Positions 13,111 through 35,349 of a DNA stretch of 64,000 nt are shown piece by piece. Every line of letters starts with the position of its first letter. Position 1 is the stretch's first letter. The notes under the pieces are model-generated. The model worked only from the letters and a program-made list of their open reading frames with translations, did no database searches and was not told the DNA's origin. Made by a program: the position numbers and the translations under genes. The stretch covers positions 973,637 through 1,037,636 of the forward strand of contig JAHFJN010000001.1 of NCBI GenBank assembly GCA_023245865.1, in the 5' to 3' direction. The stretch comes from Candidatus Peribacteria bacterium. GTDB lineage: Bacteria; Patescibacteriota; Gracilibacteria; Peribacterales; Peribacteraceae.

Positions 13111-13139
13111 TTGACTCTCTCCAAAAGTAGAGAATAATC
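13111..13139 (+). promoter_or_regulatory. Sigma70-type promoter for the 77-residue small gene
   Basis: TTGACT at 13111-13116 and an ATAATC/AATAAT -10 around 13133-13139 are spaced 16-17 bases. The predicted leader of about 70 bases contains the hairpin ACAGCC...GGCTGT before the gene. Confidence 0.55.
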
Positions 13140-13215: not shown

Positions 13216-13449
13216 ATGTCACGATCTTTCAAGCTTTCGTCTCACTCTGAAACCAATGTTGCCGGCGCGCGGATCATGCCCGGCAGCATTGTTGATGGCA
13301 AATTGCAGACACGCGTCAATGGACGCGACATGCAACTTAACATCGACGACACGTTCGAAGTGAACGGAGCACACTTTGAGGTGAAGGCGATTCGCCCTTG
13401 CCTTGAGGTGAATGTCACACTGCCGGTCCTCGTGCCGGCAACCGCCTGA
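13216..13449 (+). CDS. Small uncharacterised protein (77 aa)
   Basis: The start is fixed by a good Shine-Dalgarno sequence (AGGAGagcaacATG). The product is soluble with no membrane helix. It looks like a small beta-rich domain (GKLQTRVNGRDMQLNIDDTFEVNG, VKAIRPCLEVNVTLPV). It has its own promoter and is followed 61 bases later by an intrinsic terminator, so it is likely a single-gene transcript. No family was recognised. Confidence 0.7.
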   Translation: MSRSFKLSSHSETNVAGARIMPGSIVDGKLQTRVNGRDMQLNIDDTFEVNGAHFEVKAIRPCLEVNVTLPVLVPATA

Positions 13450-13510
13450 TGAGTACTCCCGCCGAGGCTGTCTCACAGCTTCACAAAGAACCCTCCCCGG
13501 GTTCGTAAAA

Positions 13511-13541
13511 CCCGAAGCGGCGCTGTCGCCTCGGGTTTTTT
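13511..13541 (+). terminator. Intrinsic terminator after the 77-residue gene
   Basis: CCCGAaGCG and CGCcTCGGG pair across a short loop and are followed by a run of six T. Confidence 0.85.
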
Positions 13542-13570
13542 ATAGAACCTGATCCACTTTCTCAAAAATG

Positions 13571-13595
13571 TTCCTGGGCCCTTGGAAGAGCCCAG
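13571..13595 (-). terminator. Probable hairpin terminator after the 45-residue gene
   Basis: CCTGGGC and GCCCAGG pair across about ten bases. Read on the minus strand, the hairpin is followed by AACATTTTT. The T run is offset, so the assignment is moderate. Confidence 0.45.
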
Positions 13596-13624
13596 GAAAA
13601 ACGTGTCAGCAATCGCGTCATTGC

Positions 13625-13762
13625 CTATTTTTTGTTTGGCAATGAGCCTTTTCGTTGCCTGAAGTCTTTCGCACAGATCATTCCTACTGTGCTTTGACCT
13701 TGGCGCGAGCGAGGGTTAGGACCATCTGATCTGCCGTGGCGCCTGCCTTTTTTTCTTCGCAT
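13625..13762 (-). CDS. Small basic protein (45 aa), small-gene array member 6
   Basis: The start at 13762 is set by a strong Shine-Dalgarno sequence (GGGAGGcgacgATG). The product begins MRRKKGRRHGRSDG and is very rich in Arg and Lys, so it could bind nucleic acid; this is inferred from charge only. Its leader carries the shared CTGTTCATTCACATCACC motif 89 bases upstream and a TCCGC...GCGGA hairpin at 13807-13824. No family was recognised. Confidence 0.65.
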   Translation of the reverse strand: MRRKKGRRHGRSDGPNPRSRQGQSTVGMICAKDFRQRKGSLPNKK

Positions 13763-13850
13763 CGTCGCCTCCCTTACTGATGCTGACATTTGCCCTTTCA
13801 CTCCTTGTCCGCCGAAAAGCGGACCAATGGAAAGGGGATCACGTTCTACA

Positions 13851-13872
13851 TAAGGTGATGTGAATGAACAGA
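13851..13872 (-). promoter_or_regulatory. Shared leader motif, copy 6
   Basis: The minus strand reads CTGTTCATTCACATCACC, about 89 bases before the 13762 start. It aligns with motifs at the same distance before five other small genes. Confidence 0.5.
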
Positions 13873-13890
13873 AACACATCTATCTTCTTC

Positions 13891-13927
13891 AAAAAGATGA
13901 TACCCCCCCGACTGCCGGGGAGGTATC
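13891..13927 (-). terminator. Terminator after small-gene array member 5
   Basis: On the minus strand, GATACCTCCCC pairs with GGGGGGTATC across a short loop, followed by ATCTTTTTG. Confidence 0.7.
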
Positions 13928-13956
13928 AAGAACAGCAATCAGCAGCCCGTGTTGCA

Positions 13957-14088
13957 TCACTCTGATGCGAAAGTACCGGTTGTCGTTTTCATGCGAAGGG
14001 TTGTCTTGTCACTCCGGCGACTTGATCGAATCTCCCTGCGCTTGAGACGAGATTCCCGGTTACGTTTTTGCTTGCTGGGCTTTGACAT
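13957..14088 (-). CDS. Small basic protein (43 aa), small-gene array member 5
   Basis: The product starts MSKPSKQKRNRESRLKRREI, with about a third Arg/Lys residues. The start has a weak Shine-Dalgarno (GGGAattatcATG) and lies 89 bases from the shared leader motif. A hairpin terminator lies 30 bases after the stop. No family was recognised; nucleic-acid binding is a guess from charge. Confidence 0.6.
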   Translation of the reverse strand: MSKPSKQKRNRESRLKRREIRSSRRSDKTTLRMKTTTGTFASE

Positions 14089-14176
14089 GATAATTCCCAA
14101 TTGCTGCGCGGATACGGTATCCGCTCGGATTCTGTCCACTCTCATCATTGAGAACTCAAAGGACAGATGCCTTTCT

Positions 14177-14203
14177 GCATTGCGATGCTATGAGAGAACA
14201 GGA
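14177..14203 (-). promoter_or_regulatory. Shared leader motif, copy 5
   Basis: The minus strand reads CTGTTCTCTCATAGCATCGC, 89 bases upstream of the 14088 start. Confidence 0.5.
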
Positions 14204-14232
14204 AATGATCCGGGGTCGTATAAAATTCCCCA

Positions 14233-14254
14233 CCCCTCCCTTTCTAAGGAGGGG
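14233..14254 (-). terminator. Hairpin after small-gene array member 4
   Basis: CCCCTCC and GGAGGGG pair across eight bases. On the minus strand the hairpin is followed by TGGGGAATTTTA, a poor but possible termination tract. Confidence 0.5.
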
Positions 14255-14288
14255 CGGGGGGAAGTTGGACAATCCTCATGGCTAAGCA

Positions 14289-14399
14289 TCAACAGCGGCG
14301 CATCTTTCGCCTTTGAATAAAGGCGATGAAACTGTTCGTATAAACGACGCGCACAAAGACGTGACTGTCAACGCGAGGCCACCGTTTCCGATTCTTCAT
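14289..14399 (-). CDS. Small basic protein (36 aa), small-gene array member 4
   Basis: The product starts MKNRKRWPRVDSHVFVRVVY and ends in a basic RRKMRRC. A Shine-Dalgarno (AAGGAacgatcATG) supports the start at 14399, and the leader motif lies 83 bases upstream. No family was recognised. Very short, but the layout matches its neighbours. Confidence 0.5.
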   Translation of the reverse strand: MKNRKRWPRVDSHVFVRVVYTNSFIAFIQRRKMRRC

Positions 14400-14481
14400 G
14401 ATCGTTCCTTGCAAGAGGACTGATCCAGTATCCCTGGTTGGTTTCACGATGAAACCGGGAACACCAGGTCACTTCATGTTG

Positions 14482-14503
14482 GAGATGATTTGAATGAACA
14501 GGA
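14482..14503 (-). promoter_or_regulatory. Shared leader motif, copy 4
   Basis: The minus strand reads CCTGTTCATTCAAATCATCT, 83 bases upstream of the 14399 start. Confidence 0.5.
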
Positions 14504-14523
14504 ACTGAGGTGCTTTTGGCGGG

Positions 14524-14553
14524 AGCCGGGGAGTGGCGGACCACTCCCCGGCT
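14524..14553. other. Strong hairpin between small genes
   Basis: AGCCGGGGAGTGG and CCACTCCCCGGCT form a perfect 13-bp stem with a 4-base loop. It lies after array member 3. No T run follows on the minus strand, so it may act as an RNA 3'-end protector rather than a terminator. Confidence 0.75.
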
Positions 14554-14584
14554 TGATATTGAGGGAATCTTTTGCAGTGCCAGG

Positions 14585-14740
14585 CTAGCGCCTGTTACTG
14601 CAAGCTTGCAATCGCGCTTTCGTAGTGTCGCGATCGGTGTGTCGCATGAGGATTTTGAGCTCCTCATCGGTCGGTTGACGTCGATTCTCTTCATAAAAAT
14701 GCTGACGAACCGCCGTTTCACGTTTGGAACGTTTCGACAT
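14585..14740 (-). CDS. Small protein (51 aa), small-gene array member 3
   Basis: The product starts MSKRSKRETAVRQHFYEENR, followed by a likely helix (PTDEELKILMRHTDRDTTKARL). It is highly charged. GGGAG lies 9 bases and GAGG 2 bases before the ATG at 14740. The leader motif is 91 bases upstream and a strong hairpin follows the stop. No family was recognised. Confidence 0.65.
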   Translation of the reverse strand: MSKRSKRETAVRQHFYEENRRQPTDEELKILMRHTDRDTTKARLQACSNRR

Positions 14741-14830
14741 AACCTCAGACTCCCAAAAAAGTTCAGTACCCTGCGTCCGCCTCATCCAAAGGCAGAATTA
14801 TTTTCCATTCGCAAAGGCACCTCATTTCCT

Positions 14831-14855
14831 GTGGATCGATGCTGTCAAAGAACAA
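14831..14855 (-). promoter_or_regulatory. Shared leader motif, copy 3
   Basis: The minus strand reads GTTCTTTGACAGCATCGATC, 91 bases upstream of the 14740 start. Confidence 0.5.
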
Positions 14856-14901
14856 TCACAGGTCCACCTTCATGCGCGCGCATAATACTCATTTTTTGAT
14901 G

Positions 14902-14928
14902 CTGGGGAAGGGCAAAGCCCTTCCCCAG
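14902..14928. other. Perfect 12-bp hairpin after small-gene array member 2
   Basis: CTGGGGAAGGGC and GCCCTTCCCCAG pair with a 3-base loop. On the minus strand it is followed by CATCAAAAAATG rather than a T run, so it is not a classical terminator in that direction. Confidence 0.75.
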
Positions 14929-14942
14929 ATCGGTCAAACGCC

Positions 14943-15068
14943 CTAATCGGGGCAACCCGCCTCCTCCGGGTCGTAGACTTCCGTGATCGGTTTCTCAGGT
15001 TCTCCGATTTCGATCGTCTGGATTCCACGATCCGGTGGCGGTTCCTCGTTGACGGGGTATCTGAACAT
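14943..15068 (-). CDS. Small acidic protein (41 aa), small-gene array member 2
   Basis: The product starts MFRYPVNEEPPPDRG and ends EEAGCPD. Unlike its basic neighbours it is acidic and Pro-rich, and probably disordered. The start at 15068 has a good Shine-Dalgarno (CAGGAGaaaacaATG), and the leader motif is 95 bases upstream. No family was recognised. Confidence 0.65.
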   Translation of the reverse strand: MFRYPVNEEPPPDRGIQTIEIGEPEKPITEVYDPEEAGCPD

Positions 15069-15162
15069 TGTTTTCTCCTGCGGGTCGTCCGCAATGGGTT
15101 GACCGAATCCTGACATCCATGATGGTGTGCGACTCTGTACACCGGAAGCAGGCCTGTTATTG

Positions 15163-15186
15163 TATCTATCAATGCTGTGAAGGACC
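15163..15186 (-). promoter_or_regulatory. Shared leader motif, copy 2
   Basis: The minus strand reads GTCCTTCACAGCATTGATAG, 95 bases upstream of the 15068 start. Resemblance to copy 1 continues downstream (CAATaaCAGgCCTGCtTC against CAATggCAGtgaCCTGCgTTC). Confidence 0.5.
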
Positions 15187-15363
15187 AAAAAAAAGCCTCT
15201 CTTGCGAAGGGGCGTTGTGGAGTCGAAGGTCAGATTCATTCATCGCTCCATGCCCCCTCGATTGAGGAGATTCTTGGAGACGATGATGGTGCATGATGAC
15301 AGCACGGCGAGATCGTATCAGTTCTACGCACATTGTCAATGGGCGCCATTGTCGAGTGTTTTA

Positions 15364-15372
15364 TGCTATAGT
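15364..15372 (+). promoter_or_regulatory. Extended -10 promoter for the 70-residue gene
   Basis: TGCTATAGT fits an extended -10 element (TGnTATAnT). No good -35 lies at the right distance. The leader to the ATG at 15447 would be about 68 bases. Confidence 0.4.
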
Positions 15373-15446
15373 ACCGGTACTTCCAGTCCCCACACACGAC
15401 GTGTTTGGATGATGGAAGATCGATCTTTTTTGCAAGGAGGCTTCGT

Positions 15447-15659
15447 ATGAGAAATCAGGATTTTCTCTCTGCCGCGATCGCGGCAGAATTGTCACCGCTG
15501 TGTACTCAATTGCTCCACAGCGGAGCCGGACCCGACGATCTCGGTGAGGTCGTCGCAACTTGCATCGATCGGATGCTCTTTGTGGACACGATGGTCTTTG
15601 GACCTTCGGTCCCAACCACTGCATTCGATGACATTCGTGGGCAGGCGCCATTGAATTGA
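15447..15659 (+). CDS. Small uncharacterised protein (70 aa)
   Basis: A strong Shine-Dalgarno (AAGGAGGcttcgtATG) fixes the start. The product is acidic and probably helical (MRNQDFLSAAIAAELSPLCT...DDLGEVVATCIDRMLFVD), with no membrane segment. A perfect intrinsic terminator follows 17 bases after the stop. It is the only plus-strand gene in the small-gene array. No family was recognised. Confidence 0.7.
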   Translation: MRNQDFLSAAIAAELSPLCTQLLHSGAGPDDLGEVVATCIDRMLFVDTMVFGPSVPTTAFDDIRGQAPLN

Positions 15660-15675
15660 CGCTTGCTCACACTCA

Positions 15676-15708
15676 ACCGGTCCGCAAACGGCGGACCGGT
15701 AGTTTTTT
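15676..15708 (+). terminator. Intrinsic terminator after the 70-residue gene
   Basis: ACCGGTCCGC and GCGGACCGGT form a perfect 10-bp stem followed by AGTTTTTT. Confidence 0.9.
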
Positions 15709-15727
15709 CAAACAGTGATCTGCATTC

Positions 15728-15770
15728 AAAAGGTGATGACCGAGCGTGTTTTGAGGCACACCCGGTCATC
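15728..15770 (-). terminator. Intrinsic terminator after small-gene array member 1
   Basis: On the minus strand, GATGACCG and CGGTCATC pair, with further pairing inside. The stem is followed by ACCTTTTG. Confidence 0.65.
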
Positions 15771-15778
15771 GTCAGCTT

Positions 15779-16009
15779 TCAATCCAAGACGGCGAACGCT
15801 GTTGCGAATTCGCCCTCGCGAGAAAGAACCATCCCATCCACTCGCAATAAATACGAATCAATTGGATTGACCCGCGGAGGGGCCGTTGGAAGGGCCGAGC
15901 CGCATGCAATGACGGGCGGTAAATCCTTGATCCTGTGGTTGCCCTGGTGCTTCCGCCGTTTGAATTTCGTTCCGCTGCGCTTTCCGTTGGACGTCATTGT
16001 TGTCTTCAT
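15779..16009 (-). CDS. Small protein with basic N-terminus (76 aa), small-gene array member 1
   Basis: The product starts MKTTMTSNGKRSGTKFKRRK, with a basic N-terminal third and a Pro-rich middle. The start at 16009 is preceded by AGGGAGAaagcaATG. A near-consensus promoter lies 124 bases upstream, and a terminator lies directly after the stop. A longer frame from 16060 has no start signal and was rejected. No family was recognised. Confidence 0.7.
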   Translation of the reverse strand: MKTTMTSNGKRSGTKFKRRKHQGNHRIKDLPPVIACGSALPTAPPRVNPIDSYLLRVDGMVLSREGEFATAFAVLD

Positions 16010-16095
16010 TGCTTTCTCCCTGTGTGGACCAAAAGCTGAATCCTGCGGCACTTCAGTCATCCATTTTTTGACTGAACGCAGGTCACTGCCATTGA

Positions 16096-16118
16096 AAATC
16101 GCTGCTGTGAAAGGGCAA
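16096..16118 (-). promoter_or_regulatory. Shared leader motif, copy 1
   Basis: The minus strand reads CCCTTTCACAGCAGCGATTT, about 90-105 bases upstream of the 16009 start and some 10 bases into the predicted transcript. This suggests an RNA-level element. Confidence 0.5.
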
Positions 16119-16132
16119 AATGCTCAATTATG

Positions 16133-16161
16133 AATATATAATAATTATAGTAAATTGTCAA
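16133..16161 (-). promoter_or_regulatory. Near-consensus sigma70 promoter
   Basis: On the minus strand, TTGACA (16161-16156) and TATATT (16138-16133) are separated by exactly 17 bases. Transcription would start near 16126 and give a leader of about 117 bases before the 76-residue gene. Confidence 0.8.
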
Positions 16162-16229: not shown

Positions 16230-17693
16230 ATGTCTCTGAACCTCTATAATTCCCTCACGAAACGCGAGGAACAATTTGTGTCCTTGGTCGAAGGTATTGT
16301 GACCATGTACACCTGCGGGCCCACCGTCTACGGCCGCCCGCACATTGGGAATTATTCTTCTTTTTTGATGGCAGACTTACTGCGACGTTGGCTGGAGTTT
16401 GGCGGGTACCAGGTGAAGCAGGTCAAAAATATTACCGATGTCGGACACTTGCTCCACGATGCGGATCACGGTGATGACAAAGTGGAGAAGGAGGCGGCCA
16501 AAGAAAAAGTCCACCCGCTGAGGGTCGCGGAAAAATATACGAAGGAATATTTGGAGGATGAAGCGGCGCTCCAGATCCTCGAACCCTTCGCGCGTCCGCG
16601 CGCGACCGAGTACATCGCAGAGATGCGCGAGATGATTGAAGTGTTACTGCAGAAGGGGATCGCGTACACGACTGACGAAGGCATTTATTTTGATGTCATG
16701 AAATTTCCGCACTACGGAGCCCTTTCCGGGAACACTGTGGAGAATCTCAGCGCCGGCGCGCGCGTCGAAGTGAATGAAGCGAAGCATCACCCGGCAGACT
16801 TCGCGCTCTGGAAATTCTGCGTCGGCCCCAATGCCGATCACGTGCTTCGCTGGCCCAGCCCCTCACCCCAACCCTCTCCCGCGGGGAGAGGGAGGATCGA
16901 TTCTCCGGACGGCTTTCCCGGTTGGCACATCGAGTGCAGTGCGATGAGTCGGAGCCTCCTCGGAGACACCATCGATATCCACACCGGCGGTGAAGACAAC
17001 ATCTTCCCCCACCACGAATGCGAGATCGCGCAGAGCGAATCCGTCACGGGAAAACCGTTCGTGCGCTTCTTCCTTCACAAGCGAAGAATCGACCTTGGCA
17101 CCACAAAAATGAGTAAGAGCCTTGGCAACGTGTTCAGTCTTCCTGACATTGTTGCGAAGGGTTATGACGCCTTGGATCTTCGCTACTACTTGCTGAGTGT
17201 GCACTATCGCACGCGCCTGAAATTCACATGGAAGGGCATGGAGGATAGCAAGATCGCACGACGAAAAATTGTGGAGTGGATCGATGTGCTCAAGCGAGTG
17301 ATGCGCGAAGAAAAAGTAACGGGCAAGAGTGACGACGCACCGACTATAGCGGTCCAATCATTCAAAGATGCGATGAACAGCGACCTCAATACACCGGCGG
17401 CTCTCGGCACGGTATTTTCCCTGATGAATCACTACTACGCACATGCACCATTCGATGCTGCAACGCAGATGCGGTTCATTGATTTCGCCGAGATGATTCG
17501 CCATACATTCGGATGCTTCGAGCCTGCGGTGTCAGAGAGTATCCCCGTCGAGGTACAATCACTCCTTGATGCGCGCGCCACGGCGCGCGCCCGCAAAGAC
17601 TTTGCAGAGTCCGATCGACTGCGTATGGAGATCGAGCAGAGAGGGTATGAAGTGCGTGACAGTAAAGGAAAACAGGAAGTGAAGAAAATGTAA
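16230..17693 (+). CDS. cysS: Cysteinyl-tRNA synthetase
   Basis: This class I synthetase charges tRNA-Cys. The product has 487 residues. The zinc site is visible as Cys in TCGPTVYG, Cys in WHIECSAM, and His/Glu in [10 protein letters not shown]. The ATP-binding motifs are RPHIGNYSS and KMSKS. Odd: residues about 210-224 ([16 protein letters not shown]) interrupt the usual run between the Rossmann-fold segment and the GWHIECSAM block. They are encoded by a GC-rich dispersed palindrome. A TATGCT hexamer ends 9 bases before the ATG, and there is no Shine-Dalgarno sequence. Confidence 0.95.
16858..16894. repeat. GC-rich palindromic repeat inside cysS
   Basis: CCCTCTCCC and GGGAGAGGG are inverted around GCG, and CCTCACCCCAAC precedes them. 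It is translated in frame as a Pro/Ser-rich insert. Confidence 0.75.
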
Positions 17694-29333: not shown

Positions 29334-29616
29334 GTTTCCCGGGAGAGCGGTCCCCTCGCGAGCGAAAGCGAGCAGGGGAATGCCGAACCGGAAACAATCC
29401 GCCGAAGCCTTGGCGAAGGCGGATGCGCCACTCTCACCTCGGTCATTCAAACCATCGGCCGACATGCATCGAATGTTTCACATCGCATTCGATACATTTG
29501 TAAAATTGAGATGTGAAAATTGTAAAGATGATTCAAAAAACCGCTGTTCCGTGAACACACTGTGAGCATGTCCTGCTCGCTTTCGTGGCACGAGAACAGT
29601 ATGGGTTCAAAAGTAG
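29334..29616. other. Non-coding stretch before 23S rRNA with a dispersed palindrome
   Basis: At 29398-29423 lies the imperfect palindrome TCCGCCGAAGCC/TTGGCGAAGGCGGA, a known kind of dispersed repeat. TTCACATC and GATGTGAA form a possible hairpin near 29476-29517. The 23S promoter could not be placed with confidence. Confidence 0.5.
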
Positions 29617-30700
29617 AAAAACGTTACTCAACGCATCACACGGATGCCTCGACTCTGCATTCCGATGAAGGACGCAGCCAGCTGCGATAAGCTTCGGTCA
29701 GCCGCTAGGCAGGCATTATGAGCCGGAGATTTCCGAATGGGGCAACCCCTCGAGAGTTATGTCTCGAGACTCCCGCAAGGGAGAGGTCACACTGCCAACT
29801 GAAACATCTCAGTAACAGTGGAAAAGAAATCAAATCAGAGATTCCCCGAGTAGTGGCGAGCGAAAGGGGAACAGCCCAAACCCGCAGTTTACTGTGGGGG
29901 TTGTAGGACCTCCAATATCGACTGTGAGTCCATAGACGAACGTGCCTGGAACGGCCGGCCATAGAGGGTGAGAGCCCCGTAGGCGAAATGGACTCATTAC
30001 GTAGGAGGATTCCTGAGTAAGGTCGGACACGTGAAATCCGGCCCGAATCCGGGTGGACCACCACCCAAGGCTAAACAGATGCAGAGATCAATAGCGGATA
30101 GTACCGTGAGGGAAAGGTGAAAAGCACCCCGAAAGGGGGATGAAATAGTACCTGAAATGTGATGCGTACAAAGAAGTTGGAGCGGTCGCAAGACCGTCAC
30201 AGCGTGCCTTTTGCATAATGAGCCAACGAGTTAGCTGTCAGTGGCTGTGGCTAAGGGAGTAATACCCGGAGCCGGAGCGAAAGCGAGTCCGAATAGGGCG
30301 AATATGTCGCTGGCACTAGACCCGAAACCCAACGAGCTATCCATGAGCAGGATGAAGGGTGCCGAAAGGCATCTGGAGGTCCGAACCGGTGGTAGTCGCA
30401 AGTACTTCGGATGACTTGTGGATAGGAGTGAAAAGCTAATCGAGTTGGGAGATAGCTGGTTCTCTTCGATATGCCTTTAGGGGCAGCCTCGTCGTACACG
30501 TCAGGGGGTAGAGCTACCGTTTGGATGCGGGGGTCACCTCGACCTACCAAATCCAGCCGAACTCCGAATACCTGGCCTTTGGCGACGGGAGTGAGACAGT
30601 GACAGCGAACTGCCATTGTCGTGAGGGAAATAGCCCAGAGCATTTGCTAAGGTCCCCAAATTGTCGTTCAGTGGAAAAGGAAGTGTCAGTGCTTCAACAA

Positions 30701-30731
<31 letters not shown>

Positions 30732-31274
30732 TAAAGAAAGCGTAACAGCTCACTGGTCGATGCACCGATGCGCCGAAAATGTAACGGGGCAAAACGACAT
30801 ACCGAAGCAGTGCGTGTGCGTTTCGATTTATCGAGACGTGCGCGGTAGAAGAGCGTTCTCTGCAGCAGTGAAGCCGAAGGGGTGACCCCCGGTGGAGCGC
30901 AGAGAAGCGAGAATGTTGGCATGAGTAACTACTAGGCAAGCGAAAAACTTGCCCGCCGAATCCCCAAGGTTTCCCACGCAACGGTAATCGGCGTGGGGTT
31001 AGTCGGTCCTAAGGCCAGGCCGAAAGGCGTAACCGATGGATAACAGGTCAATATTCCTGTACTTCGTACAGATCGTTCAAGGGTGGACGCTGAGAGTTCG
31101 ATCGGCCTCTGTCTCCTTCGGGAGATATGTCTGTCGGAAAGGATGTTTCTAACCTAGGTGCGGCGTGACGGAGTGGGAAGATCAGAGCGTGTGCATTGAC
31201 TGCACGTGGAAAGCGTAAGGCGTTGATCCCGGGAGGCAAATCCCTCGGGTGAGTCGAGCGTTTACCCCAATCAC

Positions 31275-31289
31275 TCCGCCTCTGGCGGA
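31275..31289. repeat. TCCGCC/GGCGGA palindrome inside 23S exon 1
   Basis: TCCGCC-TCT-GGCGGA matches the dispersed palindrome family found in genes and introns. It may simply be the tip of a normal rRNA helix. Confidence 0.6.
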
Positions 31290-31616
31290 CTGAGTCTGTC
31301 CCTTTCTGCTTCCAAGAAAACCGTCGCATTCGAGAGCTGTGCGAAACCGTACCGCAATCCAACACCGGTGGGGTGGTCGAGTAGACCAAGGCGAACGGGT
31401 CATCTTGCGTTAAGGAACTCGGCAATAAAGCGTCCGTAACTTCGGGATAAGGACTGCCCTGCGCCGCAAGGCGCGGGGCTGCAACAAAAGAGCTCAGGCG
31501 ACTGCTTACCAAAAGCACAGGTCCCTGCAAAGCCGCAAGGCCATGTATAGGGGCTGATGCCTGCCCAGTGTCAGAAGGTCACGGAAGGGGGTTTACGCCT
31601 CCGACCTAAGCCCTGA

Positions 31617-32396
<780 letters not shown>

Positions 32397-32863
32397 AGCG
32401 AAATTCCTTGTCGGGTGGTCGATAAAAACTTGCCCGAATCACGAGCAATCGTGAGCACTGAGAAATTTTGTACATGCAGTCCGTCTCCTAGACAGAGACG
32501 TATCGGCTTCAGGCCGATGAGCAAATTTTGTGAAGAAAAGCCCCGGTAGTACATGCTTCTTGCATGACTACAGGGCAAGCTGAGTTTAGAAATTGGCTAC
32601 ACACGGTGTAGCTGTTCAGTTCGTTGAGATCTCCCTGTTCTTTAAGAACGAGCGGAGATGCCACTAGTTCACCCCACTACGCTCTCTCTTGAGAGCTACG
32701 CGGGGCAAGCAGTGTAAAACGTCGCTATATGCTGGAATATCCGAGAATGCAGCGGTACGCTGCAACAATTGACAGTTGACAATTAACAGTTAACTGGTAA
32801 ATTATTGCACGTTATAATCCGTCTGCTGCGGACAATCAGCAGGAAATTTCTTTCTTCTCTTCT

Positions 32864-33049
32864 ATGCTTGATTATTTCGGAACATCAGAAAATCCACCGC
32901 CTTCCATCAAGATTGGTCAACGAACAGATGCTCTAGGCAACCTATCATCTGACACTATTCAATCATTCATTGGTGCGGTGATGAAGGCAAAAGCAATTGA
33001 ATTAGAGGAAGAAAGCTCCTCAGAGACTACACGCGACGCGTCTCATTAG
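32864..33049 (+). CDS. Short ORF in intron 2 (61 aa), function unknown
   Basis: It occupies the same place between Q and R as the homing endonuclease of intron 1, but the product (MLDYFGTSENPPPSIKIGQR...) has no LAGLIDADG motif. It could be a remnant or chance open frame. Its last codons overlap the intron R element. Confidence 0.3.
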   Translation: MLDYFGTSENPPPSIKIGQRTDALGNLSSDTIQSFIGAVMKAKAIELEEESSSETTRDASH

Positions 33050-33368
33050 CTTCATGGGCTTCCAAAGCTTCATAAGCTTCGTTAGGGTTTTCCTAATGAA
33101 GCTGTACGAAGCTAACGCAGCTAACGAAGCTCGTCAGATGATGATATAGTCCGATCCCTGCAGCGATGCAGGGGAGCGCGAATCGCGCGCTCGATAAAAA
33201 ACAAGCGATGTGTATGGTTCGTGGTTCGCCTTAGGCGGACACCTCACCATGACACATTGGTTTCCGTGCGCCCTACTGAGTAGGGTTCTGCCTAACCAGC
33301 AGAGGAAATTTTCTAGTCGAATTAGCCTAATGAAGCTAACGAAGCTACAAGCTAAGGAAGCTAGTCAT
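33045..33368. repeat. Stuttered AAGCT/AACGAAGCT repeats in intron 2
   Basis: Short units such as GCTTCAT, GCTTCGTTAG, GAAGCTAACG and GAAGCTACAAGCTAA recur in both orientations at 33045-33135 and 33325-33368, able to form long imperfect hairpins. A TTCGCCT/TAGGCGGA palindrome (33226-33239) lies between them. Confidence 0.75.
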
Positions 33369-33942
33369 GAAGTTCCGACCCGCACGAATGGTATAACGAT
33401 CTGAGCACTGTCTCGACGCAAGGCCCGGTGAAATTTCATTGACGGTGCAAATGCCGTCTTGATCACGGAAGGACGAAAAGACCCTATGAAGCTTTACTAT
33501 ACGCTGGCATTGTATTGTTTGTTTGCGTGCGCAGGATAGGTGGGACCCTCTGAAGTTGGAGCTTTGGCTCTGATGGAGGGGCCGTTGAGATACCACCCTC
33601 GCGTACAGACGATACTCACCTTGTCGCTGAAACGGCGCAAGGGACCGTGCTTGCTGGGTAGTTTAACTGGGGCGGTTGCCTCCTAAAATGTAACGGAGGC
33701 GCGCAATGGTCCACTAGCGCCGGATGGAAATCGGCGTGGTAGTGTAATCGCACACGTGGGCCTGACTGTGAGGCTGACAAGCCGAGCAGAGACGAAAGTC
33801 GGCGATAGTGATCCGGCAACCTGAGCATTTAATAGTGCTCATTACCACGTGGGTGGGTTGTCGCTCAACGGATAAAAGTTACTCTAGGGATAACAGGCTG
33901 ATCAGTCCCAAGCGCCCACAGCGACGGACTGGTTTGGCACCT

Positions 33943-34789
33943 TAAATTCGGGGTGCTATGAGGGTAACCTCATACCAAAAATTCGGCTTATAACGGTGAA
34001 CCCGTCCGTAGCATTGGTGGGTGTACGAGTGTACCATTATGTCCATGCTACCCGGCGATACCGCGGGAAGTCTGAATGCATTGCAACATGCAATTTTGGT
34101 CGGCAGTCTTCTGGGCGATGGAACGCTCCGGAGACAAGGGACGCGCACAAATGCGCTGTTCGAAGTGAATCACTCGTTTGCTTTCAAAGACTACGTCGAT
34201 TGGAAGTACGAGCAACTGAGAACATTGGTCCTCACGCCGCCGAAAGCCCGAAGGGGCAATGGAAAGCGTGTTGCGTATCGATTTACGACTCGGAGTCTTC
34301 CGATTTTTACTCGCTACTACGAATGGTTCTACAAAAGCGGGAAGAAGCGGATTCCACGAGATATCATCCTCAATCCTATAATTCTAGCAGTATGGTTTAT
34401 GGATGATGGAACGAAGAGTCGATCAGCGATCGTTCTCAATACACAGCAGTGCAATCTGAGTGAGCAGCAATGCCTCCAGCGTGCGCTGCAAAAGAGTTTT
34501 GGGATCAGATCCGCGTTGAACCGTGATCGAGGATATCTTCGATTGCGTATAACAACGGAAAGCACAACGGTCTTCGAAAAAATTGTACGACCGTACGTGC
34601 TCCCCTGTTTTCGATACAAATTGCATTCATGACCCTGTAACGACTGACCCGAAAGGGGAGACTGTCCGCCTCAAGCGGACGGTAAGACGCCGAGTCCTGC
34701 CACACTTATATCAGGCTATGGTCGCTGACCTACGGCCGATGGCAGGAACAAGATATAGTCTGCGCCATGTGAAAGCATGGAATACCGTA
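33943..34789 (+). mobile_element. Group I intron 3 in 23S rRNA (after U2500) with LAGLIDADG gene
   Basis: The 847-base insert splits TTTGGCACCT from CGATGTCGGCTC, inside the peptidyl-transferase loop. A core-like AACGGTGAACCC is near 33996 and AAGATATAGTC near 34750, which fits a group I S element. Its core differs from introns 1 and 2, so it is probably of another subgroup. The last base by alignment is A rather than G. A TCCGC/GCGGA palindrome lies at 34664-34680. Confidence 0.8.
34039..34632 (+). CDS. LAGLIDADG homing endonuclease in intron 3
   Basis: The product has about 197 residues from ATG 34039, with a GTG start possible at 34021. Two LAGLIDADG-type motifs are present: ILVGSLLGDGTL near the N-terminus and ILAVWFMDDGTK in the middle, so a single chain can cut DNA. 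Between them, FKDYVDWKYEQLRTLV and RFTTRSLPIFTRYYEWFY are typical of the family. It is a different branch from the intron 1 enzyme. Confidence 0.9.
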   Translation: MSMLPGDTAGSLNALQHAILVGSLLGDGTLRRQGTRTNALFEVNHSFAFKDYVDWKYEQLRTLVLTPPKARRGNGKRVAYRFTTRSLPIFTRYYEWFYKSGKKRIPRDIILNPIILAVWFMDDGTKSRSAIVLNTQQCNLSEQQCLQRALQKSFGIRSALNRDRGYLRLRITTESTTVFEKIVRPYVLPCFRYKLHS

Positions 34790-34850
34790 CGATGTCGGCT
34801 CATCACATCCTGGGGGTGGAGAAGCTCCCAAGGGTCCGGCTGTTCGCCGG

Positions 34851-34894
<44 letters not shown>

Positions 34895-35176
34895 TGGCCT
34901 CTATCCTCCGTGGTCCCGTGGAAACTTGAAGGAAGCTGCTCCTAGTACGAGAGGACCGGAGCGGACGAACCTCTGGTGTACCTGTTGTCGTGTCAACGGC
35001 ATTGCAGGGTAGCTATGTTCGGCCGGGATAACCGCTGAAGGCATCTAAGCGGGAAGCCCCTCCTAAGATAGTGTTTCCCCATAAGCCCGCAGGAAGATCA
35101 CCTGCTAGATCGGTCACAGGTGCACGCGCAGTAATGCGTTTAGCCGAGTGATACGAACGGGCAATTGAACGTTTTT

Positions 35177-35197
35177 CAACTTCGCAATGCGAAGTTG
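35177..35197 (+). terminator. Perfect 9-bp hairpin directly after 23S
   Basis: CAACTTCGC-AAT-GCGAAGTTG begins right at the inferred 23S end. It is probably part of the precursor processing stem or spacer. The spacer to 5S (35177-35349) holds no tRNA that could be recognised. Confidence 0.5.
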
Positions 35198-35349
35198 TCC
35201 ACCGTAGCTTTATGCGAAGGTGGATTACTTCCTTTGCAACAACCCTGTACTGTTCTTGTGTCATAAAGCGAGCATGATTTGCTCATAGATTGCATGTCGG
35301 CCGATGGAACTTGGATGTATCATGCCATTGTTCCTTTATATCAGAGTTC

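Follow-up and report, generated by a model that had tools for sequence, protein, structure and literature searches.

The subject of this analysis is a row of very small genes in the genome of a Candidatus Peribacteria bacterium, lying between a class I aldolase gene (minus strand) and cysS (plus strand). It was studied in a 64,000-nucleotide (nt) stretch of DNA, here called the window (positions 973,637 to 1,037,636 of contig JAHFJN010000001.1, assembly GCA_023245865.1); the host genome measures 1.1 Mb and the array lies on a contig of 1.07 Mb. The six minus-strand genes are built as cassettes on a plan resembling that of a ribosomal RNA (rRNA) precursor. Each of the six begins with a boxA-like element and the first (5') strand of a helix; a short leader that forms a hairpin and a Shine-Dalgarno sequence lead up to an open reading frame (ORF) of 36-76 codons, which is followed by a 3' hairpin and by the complementary helix strand. 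This architecture was established computationally. Judging from the sequence, we consider it probable, if by no means assured, that the cassettes yield mini-mRNAs which are transcribed and processed in the manner of rRNA, are controlled by CsrA and encode small, mostly basic proteins that evolve fast; within this explanation, antitermination by Nus factors, processing by RNase III, control by CsrA and the function of the proteins are what we infer. The coordinates are collected in Table 1.

The boxA element

A repeat search showed that related stretches of 23-25 nt precede the six minus-strand ORFs, at a distance of about 100 nt from the ATG in each case. A boxA profile was built from ten cassette leaders, six from the window and four from one relative. 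Besides the array, this profile finds in the same genome the leader of the 16S rRNA (C3:820623, 15.5 bits) and that of the 23S rRNA (C3:1003077, 12 bits), and in relatives many of the further matches are likewise 16S and 23S leaders. An earlier 15-nt motif pattern had matched mostly coding sequence in the genome, yet it too brought in the 16S leader. The cassette element has a consensus of about TGTTCTTTCACAGCATC; the core of the E. coli rRNA boxA is TGCTCTTTAACA, and 10 of 12 positions agree. The element was named boxA, after the antitermination signal of rRNA, because the rRNA leaders of this genome and its relatives carry it and because of the match to the E. coli core.

Genes for NusB (C3:119634-120005, E = 5e-32) and RNase III (C3:120080-120466) are present in the genome; they lie on the same strand, about 75 bases apart (G000:C3:119634-120466). 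A boxA-like leader was also observed elsewhere in the genome (L003:1422-1524, minus strand), upstream of a gene for a possibly SPFH-like protein of 434 amino acids (aa).

The private closing helix

The sequence immediately 3' of boxA (about TGAYCTGCNTTC) has its complement beyond the 3' hairpin of the same ORF, where it abuts the next boxA. When the two ends of ten cassettes were paired, cognate duplexes reached -56 kcal/mol and non-cognate ones -44 kcal/mol (p<5e-5), and with 31 cassettes of the family the observed total pairing was not attained once when leaders and tails were permuted 100,000 times. In 30 cassettes, with the tail region given for each, helices of 18-27 pairs were obtained, starting about 17-24 nt past the start of boxA. 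Over a 15-pair core, for which the windows were chosen by hand and the columns are only roughly homologous, cognate strands formed a mean of 13.6 of 15 pairs as against 10.2 for non-cognate strands, with several pair types per column. By these pairing patterns, each cassette has private helix strands, which covary. RNAalifold found no common structure in seven leaders, the conserved helix being a long-range one that differs from cassette to cassette; the folding energies of single leaders are unremarkable.

The parallel with rRNA precursors

The 23S precursor of the same genome shows the same beginning and end: its boxA leads straight into a strand pairing with the trailer at 16 of 16 positions, and the inner stem has a z-score of -10.6. 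The 30S subunit of E. coli cannot form without the leader-trailer helix, and boxA contributes to its formation (PMC10250234). As in the E. coli rrn precursor (PMC10250234), boxA in the cassettes precedes one strand of a long helix, the other strand of which closes the unit; unlike it, the cassettes enclose a protein-coding message of 200-400 nt, have a helix sequence of their own and occur in arrays of up to six units. Elements of the boxA type have been described in the 5' untranslated regions of protein genes, namely suhB, rpsJ, prsA and a ParE-like toxin (PMC5725501, in excerpt), a position that the cassettes share. They differ in genes, lineage and boxA sequence, and the excerpt reports neither a closing helix nor arrays.

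The 23S rRNA itself spans 29617-35178 (plus strand), that is 5.56 kb against 2.9 kb in the model, and therefore holds about 2.6 kb of insertions, which are probably introns. No 16S rRNA and no tRNA lie within the window.

Reading frames, promoters and hairpins

An earlier note, written from the letters of this stretch, had described eight tiny ORFs in the gap, and all of them are present. ORFs with ATG, at least 35 codons and a Shine-Dalgarno sequence number six on the minus strand, where dinucleotide shuffles give 1.7 (P about 0.003), and four on the plus strand, where shuffles give 1.4. The products had been called mainly basic with one acidic, and among the six minus-strand proteins five (g2, g3, g4, g5 and g8) indeed have an isoelectric point (pI) above 10, with g6 at 4.1. 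These products are very hydrophilic and strongly charged, and searches with the array products found nothing in Pfam and, above the cut-off, nothing in NCBIfam. The plus-strand genes g1 and g7 look like ordinary single genes by their sequence and were not counted as cassettes; in the relative G029 a similar small ORF was seen by eye at the position of g7.

The claim of a strong 3' hairpin or terminator after most of the genes holds in part: terminator-like hairpins are in excess in the array region (9 observed, 3.5 expected), but most of those between cassettes have no good U-tract and are thus not convincing terminators. The products had been said to share no obvious sequence identity; the cassettes do share sequence, in their non-coding leaders. 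The idea of independent expression is not supported, as good promoters were found only at the first minus-strand unit and at a ninth ORF of 21 codons before g6. The other cassettes, with a hairpin lacking a good U-tract before them and a boxA-like start, fit read-through of a putative common precursor that would be cut later. What the earlier note missed, the common boxA, the private 5' and 3' helices and the GGA hairpins described below, is the real finding.

Table 1 Positions of cassette elements, reading frames, promoters and rRNA precursor elements in the window
Feature	Position	Strand	Remarks
boxA-like element, g8	16101-16117	-	TGCCCTTTCACAGCAGC
boxA, g6	15171-15187	-	
boxA, g5	14838-14854	-	
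boxA, g4	14484-14500	-	
boxA, g3	14184-14200	-	
boxA, g2	13854-13870	-	
Closing helix 5' strand, g8	16072-16099	-	
Closing helix 3' strand, g8	15704-15729	-	TTGAATGCAGATCACTG...
Closing helix 5' strand, g6	15144-15168	-	
Closing helix 3' strand, g6	14848-14872	-	
Closing helix 5' strand, g5	14809-14837	-	
Closing helix 3' strand, g5	14491-14522	-	
Closing helix 5' strand, g4	14456-14481	-	
Closing helix 3' strand, g4	14196-14231	-	
Closing helix 5' strand, g3	14155-14179	-	
Closing helix 3' strand, g3	13867-13893	-	
Closing helix 5' strand, g2	13827-13851	-	
Closing helix 3' strand, g2	13540-13565	-	
ORF g1	13216-13449	+	77 aa; own promoter (13111-13138) and own terminator; no boxA found
ORF g2	13625-13762	-	45 aa, basic
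ORF g3	13957-14088	-	43 aa, basic
ORF g4	14289-14399	-	36 aa, basic (pI 12)
ORF g5	14585-14740	-	51 aa, basic
ORF g6	14943-15068	-	41 aa, acidic (pI 4.1)
ORF g7	15447-15659	+	70 aa; no boxA found; gene-like codons; U-tract terminator 15676-15700
ORF g8	15779-16009	-	76 aa, basic (pI 10.4)
Ninth, near-leaderless ORF	15240-15305	-	21 codons, GTG start; followed by hairpin with run of 8 T
Array promoter, TTGACA-17-TATATT	16133-16161	-	aligned place in G029: TTTACA-17-TATAAT
Second promoter, TTGACA-16-TACGAT	15312-15339	-	seen by eye at this position in G029 and G018 too
Hairpin usable as bidirectional terminator	13507-13539		end of array and of g1
boxA-like element before 23S rRNA, same genome	29441-29456	+	
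23S precursor outer closing helix, 5' strand	29452-29467	+	
23S precursor outer closing helix, 3' strand	35292-35307	+	16 perfect pairs

Conservation and distribution

The genes yidC, aldolase and cysS largely retain this order in the genomes of the family, and the gap often holds csrA. Comparable arrays with the layout kept occur at the same locus in two other genera (G029 and G018), and the earlier note's description of a constant architecture with differing products was confirmed against both. On comparing the window with G029, the first unit was found to be 68% identical over 95 nt comprising promoter, boxA and leader, and 81% over the 3' helix strand; the peptides gave no convincing alignment. 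Upstream of an array cassette, a near-leaderless ORF stands behind a TTGACA promoter and before a terminator-like hairpin in the window, G029 (21 codons in both) and G018 (20 codons). Searches with one window peptide against 58 relatives and with a second against 56 found nothing significant.

At a loose cut-off, and with rRNA leaders included, a model of boxA with the following block matched 72 of the 74 family genomes; a second model matched 54 of 74. Cassettes away from the rRNA genes recur across the family and often lie just upstream of DNA polymerase X (polX), a gene named from its sequence and not by a family search. Counts of cassettes per genome are partial; four matches (L101, L116, L120 and L123) were excluded, and a fifth (L118) is doubtful. 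Among 144 genomes of the class, boxA-like matches occur outside the family but no convincing cassette with a closing helix was found, using class-wide filters that lose weak matches. Among named genomes the closest in cysS (59% identity) is a Candidatus Peregrinibacteria genome (L138), which suggests a peregrinibacterial lineage; no cassette lies near its cysS. In one relative (L104 / L222, G064:C15:175), boxA and closing helix surround the gene of a protein of 167 aa whose N terminus looks signal-like; the plan therefore extends beyond tiny proteins. In the cysS gene of the window, the part at 16853-16910 is an insertion resembling a coding-compatible repeat. The open-licence literature held no description of boxA with small proteins, of CsrA or small RNAs in Peregrinibacteria, or of small-protein arrays in Patescibacteria.

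A possible link to CsrA

In 14 of 24 leaders, a GGA lies in a predicted hairpin loop between the closing helix and the Shine-Dalgarno sequence. Shuffled sequences gave a mean of 2.1 and a maximum of 8 in 200 shuffles, ordinary upstream regions gave 3 of 24, and 10.5% of 81-nt window tiles had such a loop. GGA is the commonest loop trinucleotide in the cassette leaders; in the window it is present in those of g5 and g8. Of the 74 family genomes, 48 have a detected csrA gene, which is often located next to cysS; the copy of this genome is at C3:238428-238571. Two genomes (G076 and G067) have neither the GGA loop nor csrA. In the classical arrangement, CsrA binds a GGA in a hairpin loop and a second site over the Shine-Dalgarno sequence (PMC7652899). 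Cassette leaders with a loop GGA and a GGA-like Shine-Dalgarno sequence resemble CsrA/RsmA leaders such as that of glgC (PMC7652899); unlike in those, the GGA sits inside units of boxA and closing helix, and some cassettes have no GGA loop. Taken together, these sequence features are only suggestive of CsrA control. In several relatives (L071-L090) csrA beside cysS is repeated or diverged, with up to four copies in G010 (G010:C50:4022-5059), and CsrA-like ORFs were seen in L077, L079 and L089.

Proposed course of expression

Transcription would start mainly at 16161 and yield a polycistronic precursor. NusB-S10 would bind boxA and enable RNA polymerase to read through the hairpins and untranslated stretches, while both ends of each unit would pair in the manner of rRNA leader-trailer helices and so close the message into a loop. 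RNase III, or another double-strand nuclease, may then cut in or near the closing helices to leave stable, end-protected mini-mRNAs, and in many leaders CsrA may bind the GGA loops and the Shine-Dalgarno sequence and so control translation. The products would be small, mostly basic, partly zinc-finger-like, fast-evolving and probably nucleic-acid-binding. Several cassette products were seen to resemble small zinc fingers or ribbons (L097, L105 and the one upstream of L099), with CPHC...H...C, CPVC...H and CSRCG..CSC patterns.

Several observations weigh against this proposed course of events. The cassette boxA deviates from the gamma-proteobacterial consensus, GYTCTTTAANA (PMC5725501, in excerpt). 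No 16S trailer of this genome was found in the stretch examined. In a wider downstream search, the helices of g4, g6 and g3 of the window and of the cassettes vA and vB were individually unremarkable; the duplex z-scores of single cassettes in that search are weak for several window cassettes, and permutation is the better test. Four of the six window leaders (g2, g3, g4 and g6) have no GGA loop in their minimum free energy fold, and the leaders of G006 and G070 carry GGA loops in genomes where csrA was not detected. Product homology between the arrays is weak. No more than suggestive similarity was seen between the C-terminus of g4 and vB of G018 and between g5 and a cassette product of G074 (E 0.07-0.09). 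Finally, the total codon scores of g2-g4 are poor and not gene-like, probably because of composition.

Coding evidence and alternative explanations

The units might be structured RNAs that do not code for protein, such as sponges for CsrA or RNAs resembling rRNA, with incidental ORFs. Such a view would accommodate the codon scores of g2-g4, the conservation that lies mostly in non-coding parts and the likeness of the GGA hairpin loops to CsrB-type repeats. It is judged unlikely, as the Shine-Dalgarno sequence and start codon are similarly placed across units and several findings point to translation. In the polX cassettes L099 and L100, of one genus, there are 15, 14 and 37 differences at codon positions 1, 2 and 3, with a dN/dS of 0.27 for this single pair of relatives. 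A cysteine-containing protein family encoded by first cassettes was found in three genera, with E down to 1e-11 in a comparison of five sequences. The six window ORFs, moreover, use synonymous codons like the large genes of the genome (joint z = 3.4), g2 taken alone being the exception.

Type I toxin mRNAs such as hok and aapA1 combine a small ORF with long-range pairing of the 5' and 3' ends and a stable 3' hairpin. The cassettes have all three and occur in arrays, so that the pairing might silence the messages until 3' trimming makes them translatable. We regard this as improbable: the products are hydrophilic, charged and mostly basic, and the hydrophobicity expected of a membrane peptide was not found in them; boxA and the likeness to rRNA would be unexpected in such a system, and no antisense RNA was identified, though none was systematically searched for.

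There is similarly little probability that these are, as the earlier note supposed, ordinary, independent small genes, with a common leader that is merely a promoter or ribosome-binding region. While g1 and g7, with terminators of their own, do resemble single genes, the common element matches rRNA leaders and at g8 sits downstream of the promoter, and this explanation does not account for the private covarying helices.

Integron gene cassettes are rows of single small genes with inverted repeats between them, and the array, with its single small genes in one orientation separated by inverted repeats, recalls them; that the units are mobile DNA (integron-like, or like miniature inverted-repeat transposable elements) with complementary ends as recombination sites is nevertheless very improbable, since these ends are private to each cassette and enclose its ORF instead of forming one site between genes, no attC-type GTTRRRY/RYYYAAC core was seen by eye (an integrase was not searched for), the chromosomal positions (aldolase-cysS, polX) are fixed across genera and the rRNA precursors carry the same signals.

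Biological meaning

The combination of boxA and leader-trailer helices is regarded as a hallmark of rRNA operons, boxA by itself having been described at a few protein genes. The complete set seems to have been put to new use here, for many tiny protein genes of one candidate lineage. A bolder version of rRNA-like processing, to which we lend only tentative credence, would see in the cassettes lineage-wide 'pseudo-ribosomal RNA' genes, transcribed by means of boxA, excised at their helices as end-protected mini-mRNAs and gated by CsrA in translation, the fast-evolving basic or zinc-finger products of which might have a common function, for example in RNA or DNA binding or in conflict with phages or with hosts. 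As the helices are private to each cassette, the reuse of the rRNA plan can be tested by compensatory mutation. If the rRNA-like reading is true, the Nus complex and RNase III would act on more targets and would be linked to CsrA, and the combination of boxA, private helix and hairpin would offer a handle for finding small proteins that are overlooked by ordinary annotation.

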